From IMG/VR virus record IMGVR_UViG_3300046517_001855, positions 1-27,566 of that record: 27,566 bases of DNA; one strand, 5' to 3'. This stretch comes from a virus. The position numbers and the translations under genes are program-made. The notes beneath the pieces are model-generated. The model was given only the letters and a program-made list of their open reading frames with translations, was not told where the DNA came from and did no database searches. Of the stretch, positions 6,573 to 21,211 are shown in pieces. Each line of letters begins with the position of its first letter. The stretch's first letter is position 1.

Positions 6573-7960
6573 TACTCCTCCTCCTCGACCGTCTCGGCCT
6601 GCTCGGGTAACAAGCCCCGCGCCACGGCCTGCACCCGCTCCGGCTCGTGGTGCGGCAGCCTCGCCTGGTAGCCGTTCGCCATCGGGTCGTCCCACCCGTT
6701 ATGGCGGTGGCAGACCGGCACGAACTCACACTGATTGTCCTTGCCAAAGGGTCTGCACGCCCAGCTGCAGGGCACCAGGCGGTCGAGCGCGGCCTGGAAC
6801 GTCGGACTCGACCAGGTGTGCCCCAGCTGCTGCAGCTGATACAACGTCCAGAGCGCCTCTTGCCAGCGGGTCTCCTCGCCCTCGAAGCCGCGCAGCAGCG
6901 ACTTCAGCTGCTCGGCCTGCGGGTTCATGGGGCCGAGGATGAAGCAGATCTTGTCGAGGACACTCGGCGGCAGCATCCGGGTCCAGAACTCCCCCGGTGT
7001 CAGGTCTGGGTCTTGCCCTTGATACGCGCGCCAGGTCGGCCAGTCACTCTCCTCCAGCAGCCACACGCCCGCCCGCTTGTGCATCTTGGAGGCGTGCTTG
7101 GTCTCGCCCTCGGGGTTGACCCACTCGTAACTGGGGAGCCAGTCATCGCTGGCGAAGGGTGGGTTGCCAGGGCGGCGATACCCGTAGCAGAGCGGCGACT
7201 GCTGCTTCTTGCGCGGGTCGTCCGGCGTGTAGCGGTCACGCACCCTGCGGCCCTTGTTCAATCCCACGATGTAGATCTCGGTGACCTCGGTGCCCCACAG
7301 CTCGCGGGCGTCGACCGTGCCCAGGGCGAGCTGCGCGTCGGTCTCCCACTGCTCCGCCCAGGCCTCGGACTCCCAGCCGGTGGTCTTGCACTCGAAGTAG
7401 GCCAGGCTGTGGCCGCTGCGCCGCTCGGCCAGGAGGTCCGTGCGCAGCATGATCGCCTGGCCCTCGCCTAGCATATGCAAGCGTTCTTCCTCAACCCGCA
7501 CGACTTTGTACTGCGCGTGCAGCCAGGGCAGGAACTTCAGCCGCAGCACCCAGGCCAGGCCCGCGACCAGCGCGCACTGCTCGACGATGGTCTCTTCTGT
7601 TTGTGGCCCGCCGAGGATGCCGCGGTAGCCGCGCGCGTCGACCCGCCCCAGGTAGTCGCGGGTAATGGCGCCGATCATCTCGCGCATCTCGACCAGGTCG
7701 GGCAGGCGGTCGAACCGCTGCAGGATGCGGGCGCAGGCTTCGAGGATCTGATGCACCGCGATCCCCGTGACCAGTGGCAGCGCCTCGCGGCGGGCGGTGA
7801 AGCCGTAGCCGGTCGGACCTGCGTGGTAGCCGAGATACCGCGCGCGGGGGCAGCGGGAGATGCCGACCTTGAAGCGGGAGCGGTCGGTGAGCCAGAGGTC
7901 GAGGGGGCTAGAGGTTGGCGCCAGGGTCGGTGTCGTCGTCGGGGTCGTCTCGTCGGACAT
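6572..7960 (-). CDS. Cas4/RecB-like PD-(D/E)XK nuclease with Fe-S-type cysteines, 462 aa
   Basis: Probable exonuclease of the PDDEXK_1/Cas4-AddB type, acting in phage DNA recombination. The active site is visible as RTDLL (D175) and FECKTTG (E190, K192). An upstream cysteine (C37 in ISRCPRARYLGYH) and a C-terminal cluster (C398, C402, C411, C417) match the layout of the 4Fe-4S clamp in Cas4 and AddB. HQILEA (about 70-75) resembles motif I of this superfamily. The first 20 residues are a Thr/Pro/Ser tail. I chose the ATG at 7960 (MSDETT) because GGAGG lies 7 nt upstream; longer frames upstream run into the HTH gene. It overlaps that gene by 53 bases. Confidence 0.88.
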   Translation of the reverse strand: MSDETTPTTTPTLAPTSSPLDLWLTDRSRFKVGISRCPRARYLGYHAGPTGYGFTARREALPLVTGIAVHQILEACARILQRFDRLPDLVEMREMIGAITRDYLGRVDARGYRGILGGPQTEETIVEQCALVAGLAWVLRLKFLPWLHAQYKVVRVEEERLHMLGEGQAIMLRTDLLAERRSGHSLAYFECKTTGWESEAWAEQWETDAQLALGTVDARELWGTEVTEIYIVGLNKGRRVRDRYTPDDPRKKQQSPLCYGYRRPGNPPFASDDWLPSYEWVNPEGETKHASKMHKRAGVWLLEESDWPTWRAYQGQDPDLTPGEFWTRMLPPSVLDKICFILGPMNPQAEQLKSLLRGFEGEETRWQEALWTLYQLQQLGHTWSSPTFQAALDRLVPCSWACRPFGKDNQCEFVPVCHRHNGWDDPMANGYQARLPHHEPERVQAVARGLLPEQAETVEEEE

Positions 7961-8219
7961 GCTGCGCCTCCGTCGTCGTCCTGGTCTGCGTCTTCGTGGT
8001 GGTGGTCGAACGCCGCCGCCGCCGCCGGACAAAGCTATTGGGGGCCACGCCCAGCAGGTCCTCGATCGCGGTCGCGACGTCGAGACCGGGCTTGCGAGTG
8101 CCCTTCTCATACATCGCGATGGTGCTCTGGGTGACGCCGAGCTTGCTCGCCAGGGTGGCCTGTGACCACTTTCTGGCGAGACGCGCGGAGCGGAGGGTCG
8201 TCGGGGGTCGTGTGGGCAC
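7908..8219 (-). CDS. XRE-family HTH transcriptional regulator, 103 aa
   Basis: DNA-binding regulator, probably a Cro/CI-like repressor. Residues 9-62 form a clear HTH_XRE domain: LRSARLARKWSQATLASKLG, then VTQSTIAMYEKGTRKPGL containing the recognition helix, then an AIEDLLGV helix. The domain is followed by RRRRRR, a Thr-rich run and an acidic end, with no oligomerisation or peptidase domain. I chose the GTG at 8219 because GGGAGG lies about 7 nt upstream; an in-frame ATG at 8297 has no good site. Three lambda-like operators lie 140-220 bp upstream, so autoregulation is likely. It leads the leftward replication operon. Confidence 0.9.
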   Translation of the reverse strand: MPTRPPTTLRSARLARKWSQATLASKLGVTQSTIAMYEKGTRKPGLDVATAIEDLLGVAPNSFVRRRRRRSTTTTKTQTRTTTEAQHVRRDDPDDDTDPGANL

Positions 8220-10833: not shown

Positions 10834-11820
10834 ATGTCTGCCACACGTCGCGCTGGAAGTCAAGCCCTGTCTGCCCCGACCATTCTCCTCACCGACGACT
10901 ACCCTGACGAGCGCATCGACCCCATCCCCAGGATCATCCCGGCGGGTGGGATCTCACTCCTCGCAGGCGGGCCCAACGTCGGCAAGACGGCGCTGCTGGC
11001 TGGCATGATGCACGCGCTCAAGCACGGCCTGCCGATCTTCGGCCATCAACCCAACCCGGTCGAGGCGATCGGCATCGTCGCCGCCGACCGCAGCTGGAGC
11101 CGTGGCGCGGGCGAGTGGTTCCACCGGGCAGGCTACCCGGACATCCGCCACTACGCGATGGTCGACGACCGGCACTTCGACCCGAAGACCTTGCGCCGCA
11201 AGTTCGAGCGCACGGCCAGGCTCATGGAGATGGCCGACCGCCTGGCGCTGCCCAAGCACAGCCTCCTCCTGGTCGACCCGATCGGCTTGTTCTTGGGCGG
11301 CAATTTGAATGATTACGATTCGTGCGCCGTCGCCTGCCACGAGATCCGCGCCATGCTGCGCGACCGCACCTGGACGATCCTCGCCACGGCGCACTCGGCC
11401 AAGCTCAAGGCCGACAAGCGCGAGCGCTACCTGCGCCTGCAGGACCAGCTGCTGGGCTCAACCGCCATCGCCGGGTTCGCCGACACCCAGATGTACCTGG
11501 CCAGCCCCGAGGAGATCGCCAAGCCGTACTACGCCTTCCTCTGGCATCCCCACACCAGCCCAGCGGAGACGTTCTACTTGGAGCGCGACGAGCAGGGGCT
11601 GTTCGTGCCCTACAGCGGCGCGGACCAGGGCAACTGCACGCGCGTGCTGGCGCTCTTCCCCGAGGACGGCAGCGAGATCGAGCTGGCCGCGCTGCGCGAG
11701 CTGGCGGGGGGCATCCCGGTCAGCAAGACCACGCTCTACCGGGTGCTGGAGACGCTCCTTGAACGGGACCGGATCGTCAAGGTGCGGCACGGCGTCTACG
11801 CGCGGGTCATCCTGCACTGA
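10834..11820 (+). CDS. RepA-like hexameric helicase/AAA_25 ATPase with winged helix, 328 aa
   Basis: RecA-fold NTPase of the AAA_25/RSF1010 RepA type, probably the phage replicative helicase or its loader. Walker A GGPNVGKT is at 45-52 and Walker B LLLVD at 144-148. A conserved ATAHSAK motif with H187 and the glycine-rich GGNLNDYDS segment both suit the RepA family. Residues about 270-328 form a winged-helix-like domain (ELAALRELAGGIPVSKTTLY, then HGVYARV). AGAGGAGG lies 6 nt before the ATG. It is the only rightward gene in the left half, has its own promoter, and is followed by an iteron-like region, as expected for a replication initiator module. Confidence 0.88.
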   Translation: MSATRRAGSQALSAPTILLTDDYPDERIDPIPRIIPAGGISLLAGGPNVGKTALLAGMMHALKHGLPIFGHQPNPVEAIGIVAADRSWSRGAGEWFHRAGYPDIRHYAMVDDRHFDPKTLRRKFERTARLMEMADRLALPKHSLLLVDPIGLFLGGNLNDYDSCAVACHEIRAMLRDRTWTILATAHSAKLKADKRERYLRLQDQLLGSTAIAGFADTQMYLASPEEIAKPYYAFLWHPHTSPAETFYLERDEQGLFVPYSGADQGNCTRVLALFPEDGSEIELAALRELAGGIPVSKTTLYRVLETLLERDRIVKVRHGVYARVILH

Positions 11821-11823
11821 CTC

Positions 11824-11846
11824 TATGGGCAACCCATACGGCTTTT
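11824..11846 (+). terminator. Probable intrinsic terminator after the helicase gene
   Basis: TATGGG-CAA-CCCATA (11824-11838) forms a perfect 6-bp stem four bases past the helicase stop and is followed by CGGCTTTT. The stem is short and the T run has four bases, so it is modest. Confidence 0.5.
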
Positions 11847-11861
11847 CCTGGGGGACGTGAT

Positions 11862-12012
11862 CTGTGGGACTATGGCACCCAACCCCTTGTACGTACAAGA
11901 GATATTAAAAGTCCCATGTTTTTCTAGAAGTGGGACTTTGGGGCTTCAAAGTCCCATAGTCCCACAGAGTCCCAGTACATGCGGGACCAGATAACCTGTT
12001 GTACTGGTACAA
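11862..12012. repeat. Iteron-like array, candidate replication origin or operator cluster
   Basis: Six copies of GTCCCA or its complement lie in 110 bp (11865, 11911, 11931, 11951, 11959, 11969); three are exactly 20 bp apart. AAAGTCCCA/TGGGACTTT form a 9-bp inverted repeat (11908-11939), and CTGTGGGACTATGG (11862-11875) is inverted at 11954-11967. Two dyads, CTTGTACGTACAAG (11886-11899) and TTGTAC-TG-GTACAA (11999-12012), flank the array. Local A/T-rich stretches lie between. It adjoins the RepA-like gene, as plasmid and phage iterons often do. Confidence 0.55.
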
Positions 12013-12051
12013 GTTAGCCAGAAAGTCTCTCTCTTTTACCCCCTACGCGGG

Positions 12052-12492
12052 CTACACGGGGAACCCATGTACCGGACAGCCCGCGTCCCAGGACCTGGGC
12101 GGGCAGACGCACGGGCTCTCGACCGCCACGTTGACGGGCGCCTTCGGCTCGTAGGCAGGCATCACCCAGGCGCCCCCGAGGCGGCGCAGCGCCATGCGCT
12201 CCTCCCGCGTCGGCTGGGTATCGGGCGGGGTCAGCTCCTGGCGGCCTGCGCGCATCCCCGCTGGGTACAGCAGCAGCCCGACCACGAAGCAGGCGCGGCA
12301 TCCCGGGCAGCGCAGCCGCTGGGTGAACGGGTTCCAGGTCATGCGGTTCTTGATGGCCGTGCGGCTGCTGCCGTGCCGGTTGTGGTCGTAGTCGGAGGAG
12401 ATCGCCTGCCCACAGGCCGGGCACGCGCAGCTGAAGCGCTCGATGTGGGCGAAGACGCGGTCGAGAGGCGGCAGGTTCGGCACCTTCGGCAT
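12052..12492 (-). CDS. Cysteine-rich zinc-binding protein, 146 aa
   Basis: Unknown function. The N-terminal part has C22-x-C24-x2-C27 and C62-x2-C65-x2-C68 (RCPGCRACF), a zinc-ribbon layout. Between them is a DYDHNRHGSSR segment. A second Cys/His cluster (CVCPPRSWDAGCPVHGF) ends the protein. GGAG lies about 8 nt before the ATG. It is the last gene of the leftward accessory region and converges on the helicase gene across the iteron-like region. Confidence 0.75.
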   Translation of the reverse strand: MPKVPNLPPLDRVFAHIERFSCACPACGQAISSDYDHNRHGSSRTAIKNRMTWNPFTQRLRCPGCRACFVVGLLLYPAGMRAGRQELTPPDTQPTREERMALRRLGGAWVMPAYEPKAPVNVAVESPCVCPPRSWDAGCPVHGFPV

Positions 12493-16095: not shown

Positions 16096-16547
16096 GATGC
16101 CGCCTCGACCGAGAGCCCCTCGGCCTGGATGCCTTCGACGAGCTGGTCGAGCAGCCGCGGCTCGACGGCGAACGAGCGGCCGAGCCACTGCCAGGGCTCC
16201 AGGGCGACGTTCTCGTCGACCCAGTTGCGCGCGTCGGTGGTCTCGGGCGTGAGCAGCCAGACGCTGCCGTGGTTCTCGACGGTGAAGTCGGCGGGGGCGG
16301 CGCTCGGTGCCTGCACCGCCTGGCCCGTGGTGGCCTGGTGGCGCTCGACCCTGAACCCGCCGGTGATCAGCGCCTCGATCGTGAAGTGCTCGCCGCTCGG
16401 CACGCTGACGATGTAGGGGTCGCCGAGACCCTTCGGGAGCCGGACGTAGTCCAGGCCGTGGCCCGCCAGCCAGGCGCGCGTGGCGGCGTGGGTCAAGACG
16501 ACGGGATAGAGCGGGATGGGCTGCGGGGACGAGCTGTGGTGCGTCAT
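16092..16547 (-). CDS. Conserved phage hypothetical protein, 151 aa
   Basis: The C-terminal half, ADFTVENHGSVWLLTPETTD, then ARNWVDENV, WLGRSFAVEPR and LVEGIQAEGL, is a domain I recognise as recurrent in phage genomes with no known function. The N-terminal half is a separate beta-rich part. It has the repeated leader AGGAGACACGACC before the ATG. The stop overlaps the next gene (ATGA). Confidence 0.8.
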   Translation of the reverse strand: MTHHSSSPQPIPLYPVVLTHAATRAWLAGHGLDYVRLPKGLGDPYIVSVPSGEHFTIEALITGGFRVERHQATTGQAVQAPSAAPADFTVENHGSVWLLTPETTDARNWVDENVALEPWQWLGRSFAVEPRLLDQLVEGIQAEGLSVEAAS

Positions 16548-16583
16548 GGTCGTGTCTCCTCTGTGGTCGTGTGGGTGAAACGG

Positions 16584-16703
16584 TTACAGGCTGCGCAGCC
16601 AGGCGATCAGCGGCTCAGCGGCAGCGCGGGCGGCGTCCGGCTTGTTGCAGGCGAGGTAGGCGAACACCTTGGCGAGGCTGCGGGCGGCGTCTGTGCGGTC
16701 CAT
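16584..16703 (-). CDS. Small conserved phage protein, 39 aa
   Basis: MDRTDAARSLAKVFAYLACN, then KPDAARAAAEPLIAWLRSL: two short helices. I recognise the pattern (VFAYL-CGK-x-A-A ... L) from small phage proteins of unknown function. The leader AGGAGACACGAC precedes the ATG, and it is the first gene after the 16.75-kb promoter, about 45 nt from the predicted transcription start. Confidence 0.72.
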   Translation of the reverse strand: MDRTDAARSLAKVFAYLACNKPDAARAAAEPLIAWLRSL

Positions 16704-16754
16704 GTCGTGTCTCCTGCTGTGGGCGGCTGTGTCGGTGCCGCGGTCGAGGACTAG

Positions 16755-16792
16755 AGTCTACCATGCATATGCCCGAAGGTGTCAAGCATATG
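16755..16792 (-). promoter_or_regulatory. CATATG-box promoter at 16.75 kb
   Basis: On the minus strand, TTGACA (16780-16785), 19-bp spacer, TAGACT (16755-16760). CATATG boxes lie in the spacer (16766-16771) and just upstream of the -35 (16787-16792), 21 bp apart. Each box is part of a longer ATGCATATGC palindrome. It would serve the 39-aa gene and those after it. Confidence 0.72.
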
Positions 16793-16814
16793 CATGGCAG
16801 GGGGCTGGCGCCGG

Positions 16815-17378
16815 TCAGCCGACCGGGTTGTAGGCCAGGACGTCATGGCCGTGGATGACGGTGTAGCTGGCGACGATGGCCCCAGCGCGCACCAGGCGGG
16901 CCAGGGCGTTGTAGACCTCGCGGCGGCGGCGGTTGCGGGTCAGGTCGCCCAGCCACTCCGGCAGCGCGCCCAGCTGGTCGAGGTAGTCGGTGACGCTGGC
17001 CGCGGTCAGGACCGGCTCCTTGCGGCCCACCACCTCGGCGAGGCGGTAGGTCTCGCGCAGGTAGCCGAGCACCAGCTGCTCGACGGCGACGCGCTCGCCA
17101 TGGCGCTGGTCGGCAGCCGAGGGCGGCAGCGCGACGCTCGGCCGCACCGGCTCGGGCTCGACGACGGGCTCGACGGCCACGCCCAGGCGCTCGCCCTGCT
17201 CGGCGGTCATGACGAAGCTGCGCACCGCCTCGCGGCTCAGCTTCTGCAGCTGCGCGACCTGCTGGCTGATGGTCTGCCAGTCCCGGTAGTCGAGCGGCGG
17301 GGCGTCGAGGCGGGCGGCCAGGACGTGGACGAGGGCGAGGGCCTGGACGCGTAGGGGGGTCGATGTCTGGTGCTTCAT
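16815..17378 (-). CDS. Hypothetical protein, 187 aa, possible winged helix
   Basis: Unknown function. An N-terminal helical region (LALVHVLAARLDAPPLDYRD) and a Val/Pro/Glu linker (VVEPEPVRPSVALPPS) lead to a C-terminal domain of helices ending RRREVYNALARLVRAGAIVA with a short beta wing (YTVIHGHDVLAYNPVG), reminiscent of a winged-helix DNA-binding fold. The repeated leader CAGGAGACACGACC precedes the ATG. Last gene of the block that begins at 19.1 kb. Confidence 0.74.
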   Translation of the reverse strand: MKHQTSTPLRVQALALVHVLAARLDAPPLDYRDWQTISQQVAQLQKLSREAVRSFVMTAEQGERLGVAVEPVVEPEPVRPSVALPPSAADQRHGERVAVEQLVLGYLRETYRLAEVVGRKEPVLTAASVTDYLDQLGALPEWLGDLTRNRRRREVYNALARLVRAGAIVASYTVIHGHDVLAYNPVG

Positions 17379-17418
17379 GGTCGTGTCTCCTGTGGCTGCT
17401 GGGGGCGCCTGACCAGCC

Positions 17419-17439
17419 CGCCAGGCGTCATGCCTGGCG
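17419..17439. other. GC-rich hairpin between genes
   Basis: CGCCAGGC/GCCTGGCG, a perfect 8-bp stem with a 5-nt loop, in the 78-bp gap before the leader of the 187-aa gene. No T run follows on either strand. One of several hairpins placed at gene-block boundaries. Confidence 0.6.
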
Positions 17440-17456
17440 AGCGGGGGCGGCTGTGG

Positions 17457-17912
17457 TCAGAACACGCGGCGCAACACGGCGACCGCGTCGCGGAAGCTGT
17501 CGCCGTCCGCGGGATACACGGTCGAGATGCTGCTGTCGCTGTAGGGGGTGCCGAGCGGATGGACGTCGACCGCGAAGCCGTTCTGCTCAGTGGCGTACTC
17601 GCGCAGCACCTGCTCGGCGAACGCGCGCCCGACGAAGTAGGCCGGGATGTCGACACCCAGGACGCGCAGGGCGAAGAGCTGCTGCGCCTCGGTGAGCACC
17701 CCGCCGTCGGCGTGATACTCGGTCACCACGCCATCCCGGTCGAGGATGGCGGCCAGGCGGGTGCTCAGCACGGTGAGGTGCGCGCTGCGCTCGCGGCCGA
17801 TCGCCTCGGCGGCCTCGCGGCTCTCGGCCTCGACGACGTAGCCGCTGGTGTAGACGTGGGCGTGGTTCTCGTCGGCGCGGGTGAAGGTCTGGACGAAGTT
17901 GAAGCTGTGCAT
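17457..17912 (-). CDS. Hypothetical protein, 151 aa
   Basis: Not recognised. Begins MHSFNFVQTFTRADENHAHV, beta-rich, then a helical part (AESREAAEAIGRERSAHLTV) and an alpha/beta C-terminal half ending FRDAVAVLRRVF. The first 20 residues suggest a small sheet that could bind a partner. The leader CAGGAGACACGACC precedes the ATG, preceded in turn by a 13-bp tandem duplication. Confidence 0.74.
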   Translation of the reverse strand: MHSFNFVQTFTRADENHAHVYTSGYVVEAESREAAEAIGRERSAHLTVLSTRLAAILDRDGVVTEYHADGGVLTEAQQLFALRVLGVDIPAYFVGRAFAEQVLREYATEQNGFAVDVHPLGTPYSDSSISTVYPADGDSFRDAVAVLRRVF

Positions 17913-17930
17913 GGTCGTGTCTCCTGTGTG

Positions 17931-17956
17931 GCTGCTGTTGACTGCTGCTGTTGACT
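17931..17956. repeat. 13-bp tandem duplication in a gene leader
   Basis: GCTGCTGTTGACT is repeated exactly at 17931-17943 and 17944-17956, just upstream of the Shine-Dalgarno leader of the 151-aa gene. It looks like a recent slippage of the leader's CAGCAG segment. Confidence 0.8.
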
Positions 17957-17970
17957 GCTGTGGTGACCGG

Positions 17971-18246
17971 CTACCGGCCGCCGTTGCTGCCCTGCTCGAC
18001 GACGCCCCGGTGCATCACGAGCAGGTCCTCGCCCACCTGGCGCAGGGCCTCCAGGCGCGCGTCCATCTCCGCCCGGGCGACGCGGTAGGCGCTCTCGCCG
18101 CCCGGCTGGACGTAGTAGTCGCGGCCGTGGACGGTGACCTGGCGCAGGGCGTCGACCGCCGCGATGACTGCGCTGTGCGCCGCTTCCAGCTCGCCGAGCA
18201 GGCTGCTGCGGCCGGTGCCGTTGCTGTGGATCGTCGGAATCATCAT
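17971..18246 (-). CDS. Small conserved phage hypothetical protein, 91 aa
   Basis: Begins MMIPTIHSNGTGRSSLLGEL, then a helix, then VHGRDYYVQPGGESAYRVAR and a second helix. The H-GRDYYVQ-G-ayr-AR pattern recurs in small phage proteins of unknown function. Two adjacent ATG codons are possible; GAGG lies 9 nt before the first. Its leader has diverged from the CAGGAGACACGACC form. Function unknown. Confidence 0.72.
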   Translation of the reverse strand: MMIPTIHSNGTGRSSLLGELEAAHSAVIAAVDALRQVTVHGRDYYVQPGGESAYRVARAEMDARLEALRQVGEDLLVMHRGVVEQGSNGGR

Positions 18247-18280
18247 GGTCGGTGCCTCGTCAGGGGCGTTTGGTCGCCCG

Positions 18281-18309
18281 ACGCCCTGGCTCGCGGGTGG
18301 CCAGGGCGT
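18281..18309. other. Strong GC-rich hairpin between genes
   Basis: ACGCCCTGGC (18281-18290) and GCCAGGGCGT (18300-18309) form a perfect 10-bp stem with a 9-nt loop in the 72-bp gap between two leftward genes. There is no T run on the minus strand, so it may stabilise or process mRNA rather than end it. Confidence 0.65.
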
Positions 18310-18318
18310 TTCGTACAC

Positions 18319-19065
18319 CTACCGCCAGCTCTCGTGCCAGTCGCCGTGCGGCCCGTCGTGGCCCGCGTCCTTGCGGCAGGAGACGCCGACGCCGCCGGGC
18401 GCGCCGCAGACCTCGACCTGGCGCTCGGCGTCCATCTCGGCCTGGCGGGCGGCCAGCGTCGCGCGGATACGGTCGCCGACGCTGGCGGGGAGCGGTTGGC
18501 GCTCGACGGGCTCGGGCGCGACGACCGGCCCGGCCAGCAGCGCGAGCACCGCCACGGCCTGCGCCTCACTCAGGCCGTTGAGGCGCATGGACACCTCGAC
18601 GTCGCCGTTGGGGCGGCTGTCGCCCTCCAGGCGCGCGACGGTCAGGACGCCGCTCTTGACCAGCTCGTTGATCGCGTTGGCCATGGGCTGCAGGCGGGCG
18701 ACGACGGCCTTCTCGCGCAGCAGCTGGGCGTCGAGCTGCGCCTGGGCCGCCTTGGCCGAGGCTCGGGCCACGCGGTCCTCGCCGACGATGCGAATGAGCT
18801 GCCGGGCGATGTAGGTGACGTCGGCGACCTTGGTGAAGCGGTGAATGCCTGCGTGGCGGGCGCGGTCGGCGTAGCTGCCGCGGACCTCGACGCTGCGGAC
18901 CTGGCGCAGGCTGTTGGTGTCGAGGTAGACGGCGATCGAGCTTCCGGGGAAGGACAGGCTGTTGCTGGAGGTGTTGACGGGCAGCGGCGCGAGCTGCTCA
19001 CGCAGGGCGGCGATGTACTGGGCGGCGGTCAGGGTGCTGGCGGCGGGGGCGGACTGTCTGGTCAT
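18319..19065 (-). CDS. Hypothetical protein with C-terminal Cys/His motif, 248 aa
   Basis: Unknown function. It has a helical N-terminus, a Ser/Val-rich central part (SSNSLSFPGSSIAVYLDTNS) and long helices (ASAKAAQAQLDAQLLREKAV). The end, VCGAPGGVGVSCRKDAGHDG then PHGDWHESW, has a C, C, GH, GPH, W arrangement found at the ends of many phage and actinobacterial proteins and probably binds zinc. The ATG follows AGGAGACACGCAC, a variant of the repeated leader. First gene after the 19.1-kb promoter. Confidence 0.76.
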   Translation of the reverse strand: MTRQSAPAASTLTAAQYIAALREQLAPLPVNTSSNSLSFPGSSIAVYLDTNSLRQVRSVEVRGSYADRARHAGIHRFTKVADVTYIARQLIRIVGEDRVARASAKAAQAQLDAQLLREKAVVARLQPMANAINELVKSGVLTVARLEGDSRPNGDVEVSMRLNGLSEAQAVAVLALLAGPVVAPEPVERQPLPASVGDRIRATLAARQAEMDAERQVEVCGAPGGVGVSCRKDAGHDGPHGDWHESWR

Positions 19066-19116
19066 GTGCGTGTCTCCTGTAGCTGCTGTGAACGTGTCTC
19101 GAATGAACCGGTCTTC

Positions 19117-19159
19117 ATTCTACTTGCATATGCTTTTCGGTGTCAAGGCCTATGCTTTC
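19117..19159 (-). promoter_or_regulatory. CATATG-box promoter at 19.1 kb
   Basis: The best promoter in the window: on the minus strand, TTGACA (19141-19146), 18-bp spacer, TAGAAT (19117-19122). CATATG lies in the spacer (19127-19132), and a one-mismatch box, CCTATG (19149-19154), lies upstream of the -35, 22 bp away. Predicted start is about 45 nt before the ATG at 19065. Confidence 0.8.
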
Positions 19160-19169
19160 CCACACCACA

Positions 19170-19202
19170 ATGGGGGGCCAGGCCTGGTGCCCAACCCCCC
19201 AT
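19170..19202 (-). terminator. Hairpin separating two leftward transcription units
   Basis: ATGGGGGG (19170-19177) and CCCCCCAT (19195-19202) form an 8-bp stem around a loop that contains the CCAGGCCTGG palindrome. It lies just past the last gene of the 20.8-kb unit and before the 19.1-kb promoter. No T run, so termination is a guess from position. Confidence 0.45.
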
Positions 19203-19224
19203 GGGTGTCGACGCGGCTCTCCGC

Positions 19225-19437
19225 TCAGAAGGCGCGCGGGTGGCGCCTCGCGAAGGCCAGGTAGTGCGCCGCCCAGGTCCTGGCCGCGTCCCAGTCCTCA
19301 CGCGGCAGCAGCCTCGCCTGGGCGTCACTCCCCGGCCGCCACTGGATCTTGGAGAGCAGCCGGTAGCCCCGCGACCACTGGCCCGAGTGCATGCGCGCCG
19401 CAACGTAGGCGAGCCCGATCAAGCGGTCGGCGTCCAT
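19225..19437 (-). CDS. Small hypothetical protein, 70 aa
   Basis: Not recognised. MDADRLIGLAYVAARMHSGQ, then WSRGYRLLSKIQW and a helix with WDAARTWAAHYLAFARRH. Trp-rich and basic. The ATG overlaps the upstream TGA (TGATG) at a junction with sequence GAAGGTGAAGTGATGG, nearly identical to the next junction upstream. Last gene of its unit. Confidence 0.68.
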   Translation of the reverse strand: MDADRLIGLAYVAARMHSGQWSRGYRLLSKIQWRPGSDAQARLLPREDWDAARTWAAHYLAFARRHPRAF

Positions 19438-20968: not shown

Positions 20969-21211
20969 TAAGTGAGGCAAAACTCGAGACCCCCGAAAAC
21001 GCGCTGGCGCCACGAACGCAGGCTCGGTCGACCGAACCCCGCGGAAAACCGGCGGCGTCGCTCCTGAGGCATCCTCGTGGCTCCTAGGGCCTGTGGAAAA
21101 GTGACCTTTTTGCCTCACTTAGCCTGTGCATAACCTGTGGACGTGCCTGTGCAAAACGCATTACAGATTGTAATATCGCGGTATTCGCTCAGTGTTTCCG
21201 CGTGGTTTCGC
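20969..21211. other. Candidate origin: inverted repeats and DnaA-box-like sites
   Basis: TAAGTGAGGCAAAA (20969-20982) and its exact complement (21108-21121) form a 14-bp inverted pair 125 bp apart. Between and after them CCTGTGSA occurs at 21090, 21123, 21134 and 21146. On the minus strand these read TTTTCCACA, TTATGCACA (a perfect TTATNCACA DnaA box), a poor copy, and TTTTGCACA. A/T-rich dyads ATTACA-GAT-TGTAAT and AATATCGCGGTATT follow at about 21160-21185. Origin function is inferred. Confidence 0.5.

Follow-up and report, generated by a model that had tools for sequence, protein, structure and literature searches.

In a 27,566-bp virus record, the whole of which we call the window, a cluster of short repeated words lies directly behind a gene for a RepA-like ATPase. 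We propose from the sequence that these words are iterons for the C-terminal winged helix of that protein, and that the array is most likely the replication origin of the phage, a reading to which we assign a probability of about three in four. The features on which the argument turns are these:

10834-11820, + strand: RepA-like ATPase, with AAA_25 at residues ~24-191 and a C-terminal GntR/IclR-like winged helix at residues ~270-325
11725-11742, + strand: codons 298-303 (KTTLYR), the recognition-helix positions found by column scans to track the array word, 299 and 302 foremost
11821-12051, no strand: non-coding, GC-poor gap of 231 bp, bounded by the 3' ends of repA and of the zinc-ribbon gene and holding the whole array
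11865-11916, no strand: inverted word pair with a 52-bp outer span around an AT-rich dyad
11865-11874, + strand: word 1, TGGGACTATG
11887-11898, no strand: TTGTACGTACAA, a perfect palindrome at the start of the AT-rich stretch that the first inverted word pair encloses
11907-11916, - strand: word 2, TGGGACTTTT
11931-11940, + strand: word 3, TGGGACTTTG
11947-11956, - strand: word 4, TGGGACTTTG
11955-11964, - strand: word 5, TGGGACTATG
11965-11974, - strand: word 6, TGGGACTCTG
11999-12012, no strand: TTGTACTGGTACAA dyad, whose conservation in relatives is not evident
12052-12492, - strand: zinc-ribbon protein, which bounds the array in 14 phages and served as the control protein, not as a likely binder

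An earlier sequence-only reading of this DNA had described six GTCCCA/TGGGAC hexamers in 110 bp, and all six could be relocated, at 11865(+), 11911(-), 11931(+), 11951(-), 11959(-) and 11969(-); three of them are indeed exactly 20 bp apart (11911, 11931 and 11951), in alternating orientation. The cluster is far beyond chance: the remaining 12 TGGGAC copies of the window are scattered across 27.4 kb, a Poisson estimate that allows for the number of windows gives ~1e-8 for six copies in 110 bp, and none of 500 dinucleotide shuffles of the gap produced a hexamer with six copies. The word extends to ~10 bp, TGGGACTTTG, which at <=1 mismatch is found in the array and nowhere else in the window. The inverted pair, previously given as 14 bp, is real and longer, with 18-nt arms (11861-11878 / 11951-11968) that are 94% complementary. 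Both TTGTAC dyads lie where they had been placed (11887-11898 and 11999-12012), and only the first is part of a motif that recurs, namely the AT-rich dyad of GTAC type that the first inverted word pair encloses. The gap had rightly been called locally A/T-rich, its GC being 0.502 versus 0.693 for the window and 0.42 over 11880-11960.

The gene just before the array is RepA-like, as had been read: its product matches Pfam AAA_25 (E 3.6e-12) and has a Walker A motif and a RecA-fold ATPase of the AAA_25/RepA type. The AlphaFold (AF2) model of the protein is usable, with a mean pLDDT of 80, and in a fold search with the ATPase model RSF1010 RepA took ranks 1-3 (Z 18.6-18.9), with the DnaB, RadA and KaiC folds scoring only slightly below; the nearest predicted phage structures were mostly prim-pol/primase-helicase proteins. 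Since folds of the RadA/KaiC type are nearly as close in this modelling, the ATPase could be a motor of recombination rather than of replication. The C-terminal winged helix matched curated models only below threshold (IclR HTH at 0.0044; FadR, HutC and others). By eye, its recognition helix aligns to that of FadR without gaps, with residue 299 opposite Thr46 and residue 302 opposite Arg49. In FadR, Thr46 makes base-specific contacts, and its place, HTH position 39, correlates with operator bases (PMC4494728); Arg49 of FadR contacts the backbone only. The GntR regulators, similar as their winged-helix sequence is, differ from the RepA-like protein in that they mostly act on palindromic operators of cellular genes and are not fused to a RecA-fold ATPase.

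Searches of viral contigs yielded 22 distinct phages with a repA gene, namely that of the window and 21 more, and annotated phages, plasmids and bacterial genomes yielded no relative, with either the window protein or alignments as query. One distant member, L064, has matches to 'RecA-like recombinases' of Microbacterium phages that are confined to its ATPase part. The terminase is below 60% identity to any of 50,697 phage records, among which there was also no repA relative, and the phages bearing repA probably constitute an undescribed family-level group. A word array follows repA at the same place in all 22, displaced in L015 by 1.3 kb, where an inserted gene pair pushes it away and both the array and its AT-rich dyad are kept. 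Absence of the array from close relatives that keep the helicase had been named beforehand as evidence against an origin; every relative with the gene has the array, and the proposal thus passed this test. The word itself differs in most phages, being TGGGACTTTG in the window and TGAGAC, TGAGCC, TGACACTCTT, TGTCCAGA, TGATAGAA and others elsewhere. Tested one by one, 14 of 17 arrays were significantly enriched in a hexamer (L016, L019 and L164 were not), the gap was one of the three spots lowest in GC in 11 of 12 genomes, and AT-rich/GTAC dyads occupy the position of TTGTACGTACAA in most relatives.

The variation of the word among these phages allowed us to ask which part of the protein varies with it. 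Array similarity was expressed as the cosine of repeated k-mers, for which motif alignment is unnecessary, and was compared with the similarity at every RepA column and 6-residue stretch after removal of ATPase-domain similarity (partial Mantel). The recognition helix gave the top 6-residue windows (at 297-299) with 13, 16 and 22 phages alike, and in most settings the best single column was 299. With 13 phages, the family-wise permutation P was 0.0004 for 5-mers, and for 6- and 7-mers the window test was significant and the single-column test was not; with 16 phages, three measures gave family-wise P of 0.0008, 0.039 and 0.001; with 22 phages, residue 299 explained word similarity best in the whole protein (family-wise P 0.0002 for 5-mers and 0.024 for 6-mers). 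The zinc-ribbon control, available in 14 phages, had no significant column (FWER 0.16-0.50), while on those same phages RepA windows were significant (0.005 and 0.017). When the words are set in a TG frame, Ala or Thr at 299 goes with G at base 4 and Arg or Lys with C, in 16/16 of the rule-deriving set, and at 302 Ala, Ile or Tyr goes with A at base 5 and Lys, Gln or His with C or G, in 15/16. The exception, L017, is the only phage with Asn at 303 and has the only word with GT instead of TG. Three phages with ATPases 76-78% identical (L017, L018 and L023) have three words and three helices, and the distant L064, L015, L023 and L161 share both helix type and word. Residues 298-303 read RATVAR in L018 and AATVKR in L161. 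Helix class and word class each require five changes on the ATPase tree, and because only two tree-independent pairs fall on well-supported branches, the phylogenetic replication is modest. The array word nevertheless varies in step with the recognition helix, from which it follows that the array is very probably RepA's own landing site; judged from these sequences, we are confident that the protein reading the words would be the RepA-like ATPase itself.

Words could also be predicted from helices, with mixed success. A first rule written beforehand, x[A/T]T[V/I/L]KR -> TGAGCY, then agreed with L064 and L015 (TGAGC(C/T)), and the literal prediction for L077 (TGGACA) failed, the word found being TGACCC. 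After this miss the rule was recast in the TG frame and fixed, and was then applied to six distant relatives whose arrays were unseen, one of which (L164) was left out of the word predictions. Both bases matched in L161 (predicted TG?GC, found TGAGCC), L166 (TG?GA, found TGAGAR) and L162 (TG?CA, found TGGCAGT); base 4 was missed in L165 (TG?G, found TGAT, TGATAGAA) and in L163, which had been declared low-trust beforehand. With three distant members predicted correctly, one wrongly and a further one missed at low trust, the helix-word rule is informative and incomplete.

The arrangement of the words has a recurring element of its own. Facing words (+ followed by -) that measure 48-52 bp from outer end to outer end occur in 13/16 arrays (permutation P 0.0002) and this span was seen again in 3/6 later phages; many such pairs bracket an AT-rich segment with a GTAC-type dyad, the window pair at 11865-11916 enclosing TTGTACGTACAAGAGATATTAAAA, and several arrays have a second inverted pair of this kind at the far end. 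The words otherwise stand in mixed orientation with no strict helical spacing, and are not direct repeats at near-constant spacing, whereas those of classical iteron plasmids are direct repeats.

The surroundings of the array were traced with a 67,441-bp contig (G001, locus L005) that is identical to the window around repA. When this contig is joined end to end, the spacing from repA to the terminase gene matches that of the window to within a few bases, and the gene order can therefore be followed round the genome. The early genes form a ~29-kb block on the - strand, from ~+9 kb to -20 kb as counted from the end of repA, within which repA is the sole + strand gene; the structural genes are on the + strand. 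Among the replication-type genes are one for a DNA polymerase A that bears a uracil-DNA glycosylase domain at its N-terminus, one for a helicase resembling Dda and one with a weak match to Sak4; in the set of genes tested, no further initiator or primase could be recognised. In L025 the family-A polymerase (16380-19394, - strand, 1004 aa) lies ~15.4-18.5 kb left of the repA end and has an N-terminal UDG (E 8e-18) on one chain with DNA_pol_A (E 7.7e-21). The early - strand block of the window also encodes a small Cro/C1-type HTH protein (7908-8219; HTH_3, E 7.5e-16), a possible regulator.

Cumulative GC skew, which the sequence-only reading had put forward as a check, did not point to the array. 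In most genomes the detrended maximum falls 3-14 kb to the right of it, and in most the minimum falls at +30-40 kb; since the extremes are off the array and roughly follow gene orientation, the skew test gives the origin no support; nor were DnaA boxes found by the array, within 9 kb at <=1 mismatch. The iteron part of that reading is strongly supported, by the word array beside the repA gene, by the AT-rich segment and, indirectly, by the helix covariation; the reading falls short as to direct repeats, DnaA boxes and skew. What argues for an origin is the layout: a RepA-type helicase with iterons and an AT-rich dyad just downstream matches the SaPI, SCCmec and pRN1 replicons, which by analogy would make origin the most likely function of the array.

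Other explanations have to be weighed against this one. The covariation speaks for binding and not for replication, the winged helix resembles those of GntR-type transcription regulators and the skew extremes lie elsewhere, all of which would suit an array that RepA binds as a control, copy-number or partition site, acting in transcription regulation or genome pairing. We consider such a site unlikely, since the array is flanked by the 3' ends of two genes, has no promoter-like site and is 1 kb away from the repA start, the divergent region upstream of repA has no array, and the AT-rich dyad inside the inverted pairs looks like an unwinding element; a RecA-fold motor of the RepA type, moreover, is not known as a partition ATPase. 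It is distinctly less probable that replication starts elsewhere and the array is secondary. The candidate would be 21092-21156, in the non-coding 1.3 kb that separate early from late genes, where TTTTCCACAGG, TTATGCACAGG and TTTTGCACAGG are DnaA-box-like and all on the - strand. This cluster has three to four such sites within 65 bp, and the detrended skew maximum of the window's phage (+9.6 kb from repA) is nearby. Such a maximum is usually the sign of a terminus, however, and here tends to follow the switch in gene orientation; nearly all relatives lack the cluster, every one of them has the array, and the cluster was rejected as a common origin for want of conservation.

That the link between word and helix is an artefact of ancestry or alignment, with another protein binding the array, gains some credit from the small number of well-supported independent contrasts, the two missed predictions and the failed literal one. 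We regard it as very improbable in view of the partial Mantel correction for ATPase similarity, the close ATPases of L017, L018 and L023 with their different words and helices, the sharing of both by distant phages, and the negative zinc-ribbon control. Lastly, the gene ends are convergent and inverted words can pair (e.g., 11930-11946 / 11949-11965), as in a terminator or RNA element whose repeats are by-products of a hairpin. A scan of the gap for terminator-like and promoter-like sites, tRNA and Rfam elements found none, and all four were rejected as identities of the gap; many words share one orientation, and an RNA hairpin has no reason to track the recognition helix of RepA, which leaves this the least probable of the explanations.

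An origin with RepA as its initiator has parallels in several known systems. According to PMC7581432, which cites Ubeda 2007 on this point, the C-terminal domain of the SaPI Rep and SCCmec Cch2 helicases recognises multiple short iterons directly downstream of their own gene, and repeat binding has been demonstrated for the Cch2 domain (PMC7581432). The phage protein is alike in having its putative iterons right behind its own gene, its specificity being suggested here by covariation; it differs in its motor, which from sequence is an AAA_25 RecA fold of the RSF1010-RepA type and not AAA+/DUF927 or D5 (Primase_C-terminal) as in SaPI Rep and Cch2. P4 alpha and pRN1 ORF904 are helicases with a C-terminal winged helix; P4 alpha binds repeats at its origin, and pRN1 has its origin just downstream of the ORF904 gene, with a stem-loop and not iterons (PMC4234260). 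Both are SF3 helicases fused to a primase, whereas the RepA-like protein has no primase domain. Because the motor type differs, it is not a member of the SaPI Rep, Cch2 or P4 alpha families. RSF1010 offers the closest ATPase fold (PDB 1g8y, 1nlf, 1olo) and an iteron origin (PMC4234260); there the iteron binder RepC and the helicase RepA are separate, and the phage protein seems to join both functions on one chain. As for the words, the abstract of PMC12548392 describes for geminiviruses short iterons that vary among close relatives and correspond to the Rep of each; geminiviruses are ssDNA plant viruses with unrelated Rep proteins and rolling-circle replication. The best reading by analogy is that the RepA-like protein would work as a self-loading initiator helicase in the manner of SaPI Rep, Cch2 and P4 alpha, with RSF1010 RepA as its closest motor.

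We infer that direct binding, strand opening, loading and the start of synthesis take place at the array. The RepA-like ATPase would contact the words with residues 298-303 of its recognition helix and gather on the array, notably at the inverted pairs 48-52 bp apart that bracket the AT-rich dyad; it may help to open the AT-rich DNA at the dyad and load itself there as a hexameric helicase, whereupon the phage's own family-A polymerase would start synthesis. In a wider and tentative view, which we hold at somewhat less than even odds, an undescribed phage group (~67-76 kb, with no close relative among the annotated records) uses as initiator an RSF1010-RepA-type helicase fused to an iteron-binding winged helix, and has repeatedly switched origin identity through two or three co-changing helix residues together with the whole iteron set, perhaps avoiding cross-firing with co-infecting relatives or origin-parasitic satellites. 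We found no published description of the fusion, the phage group or the fast-changing word set in a search that covered few subscription journals. The phages amount to a natural series of putative initiator-origin pairs, the word sequence being tracked by a few residues of a single helix, so that origin specificity in tailed phages becomes directly testable through the exchange of a few residues. Initiator and RepA-type helicase would share one chain in them, a task for which RSF1010 needs two proteins. They also raise the question of why close relatives change their origin words so fast.

Some further observations concern the neighbours of the array and the contigs. The zinc-ribbon protein has several CxxC/CxC-type motifs, is conserved and adjoins the array in most relatives, with no family match. 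It was rejected as the binder, having no covariation signal, and the array persists where the ribbon gene is not adjacent (L015 and L064). The gene between repA and the array in L015 (6917-7975; repA end +11 to +1069 in G005) encodes 352 aa and looks glycosyltransferase-like by eye. In the 69,814-bp contig of L020 (G010), the array, the ribbon gene and the next small genes are duplicated in tandem (repA end +89 to +3450), the ribbon copies having diverged and the array words being the same; one copy starts at the contig end, so assembly could contribute to the duplication. The contigs of L015, L017 and L019, though listed as linear, have identical 109-123 bp at both ends, and the assemblies thus close into ~70 kb circles, which points to near-complete genomes.
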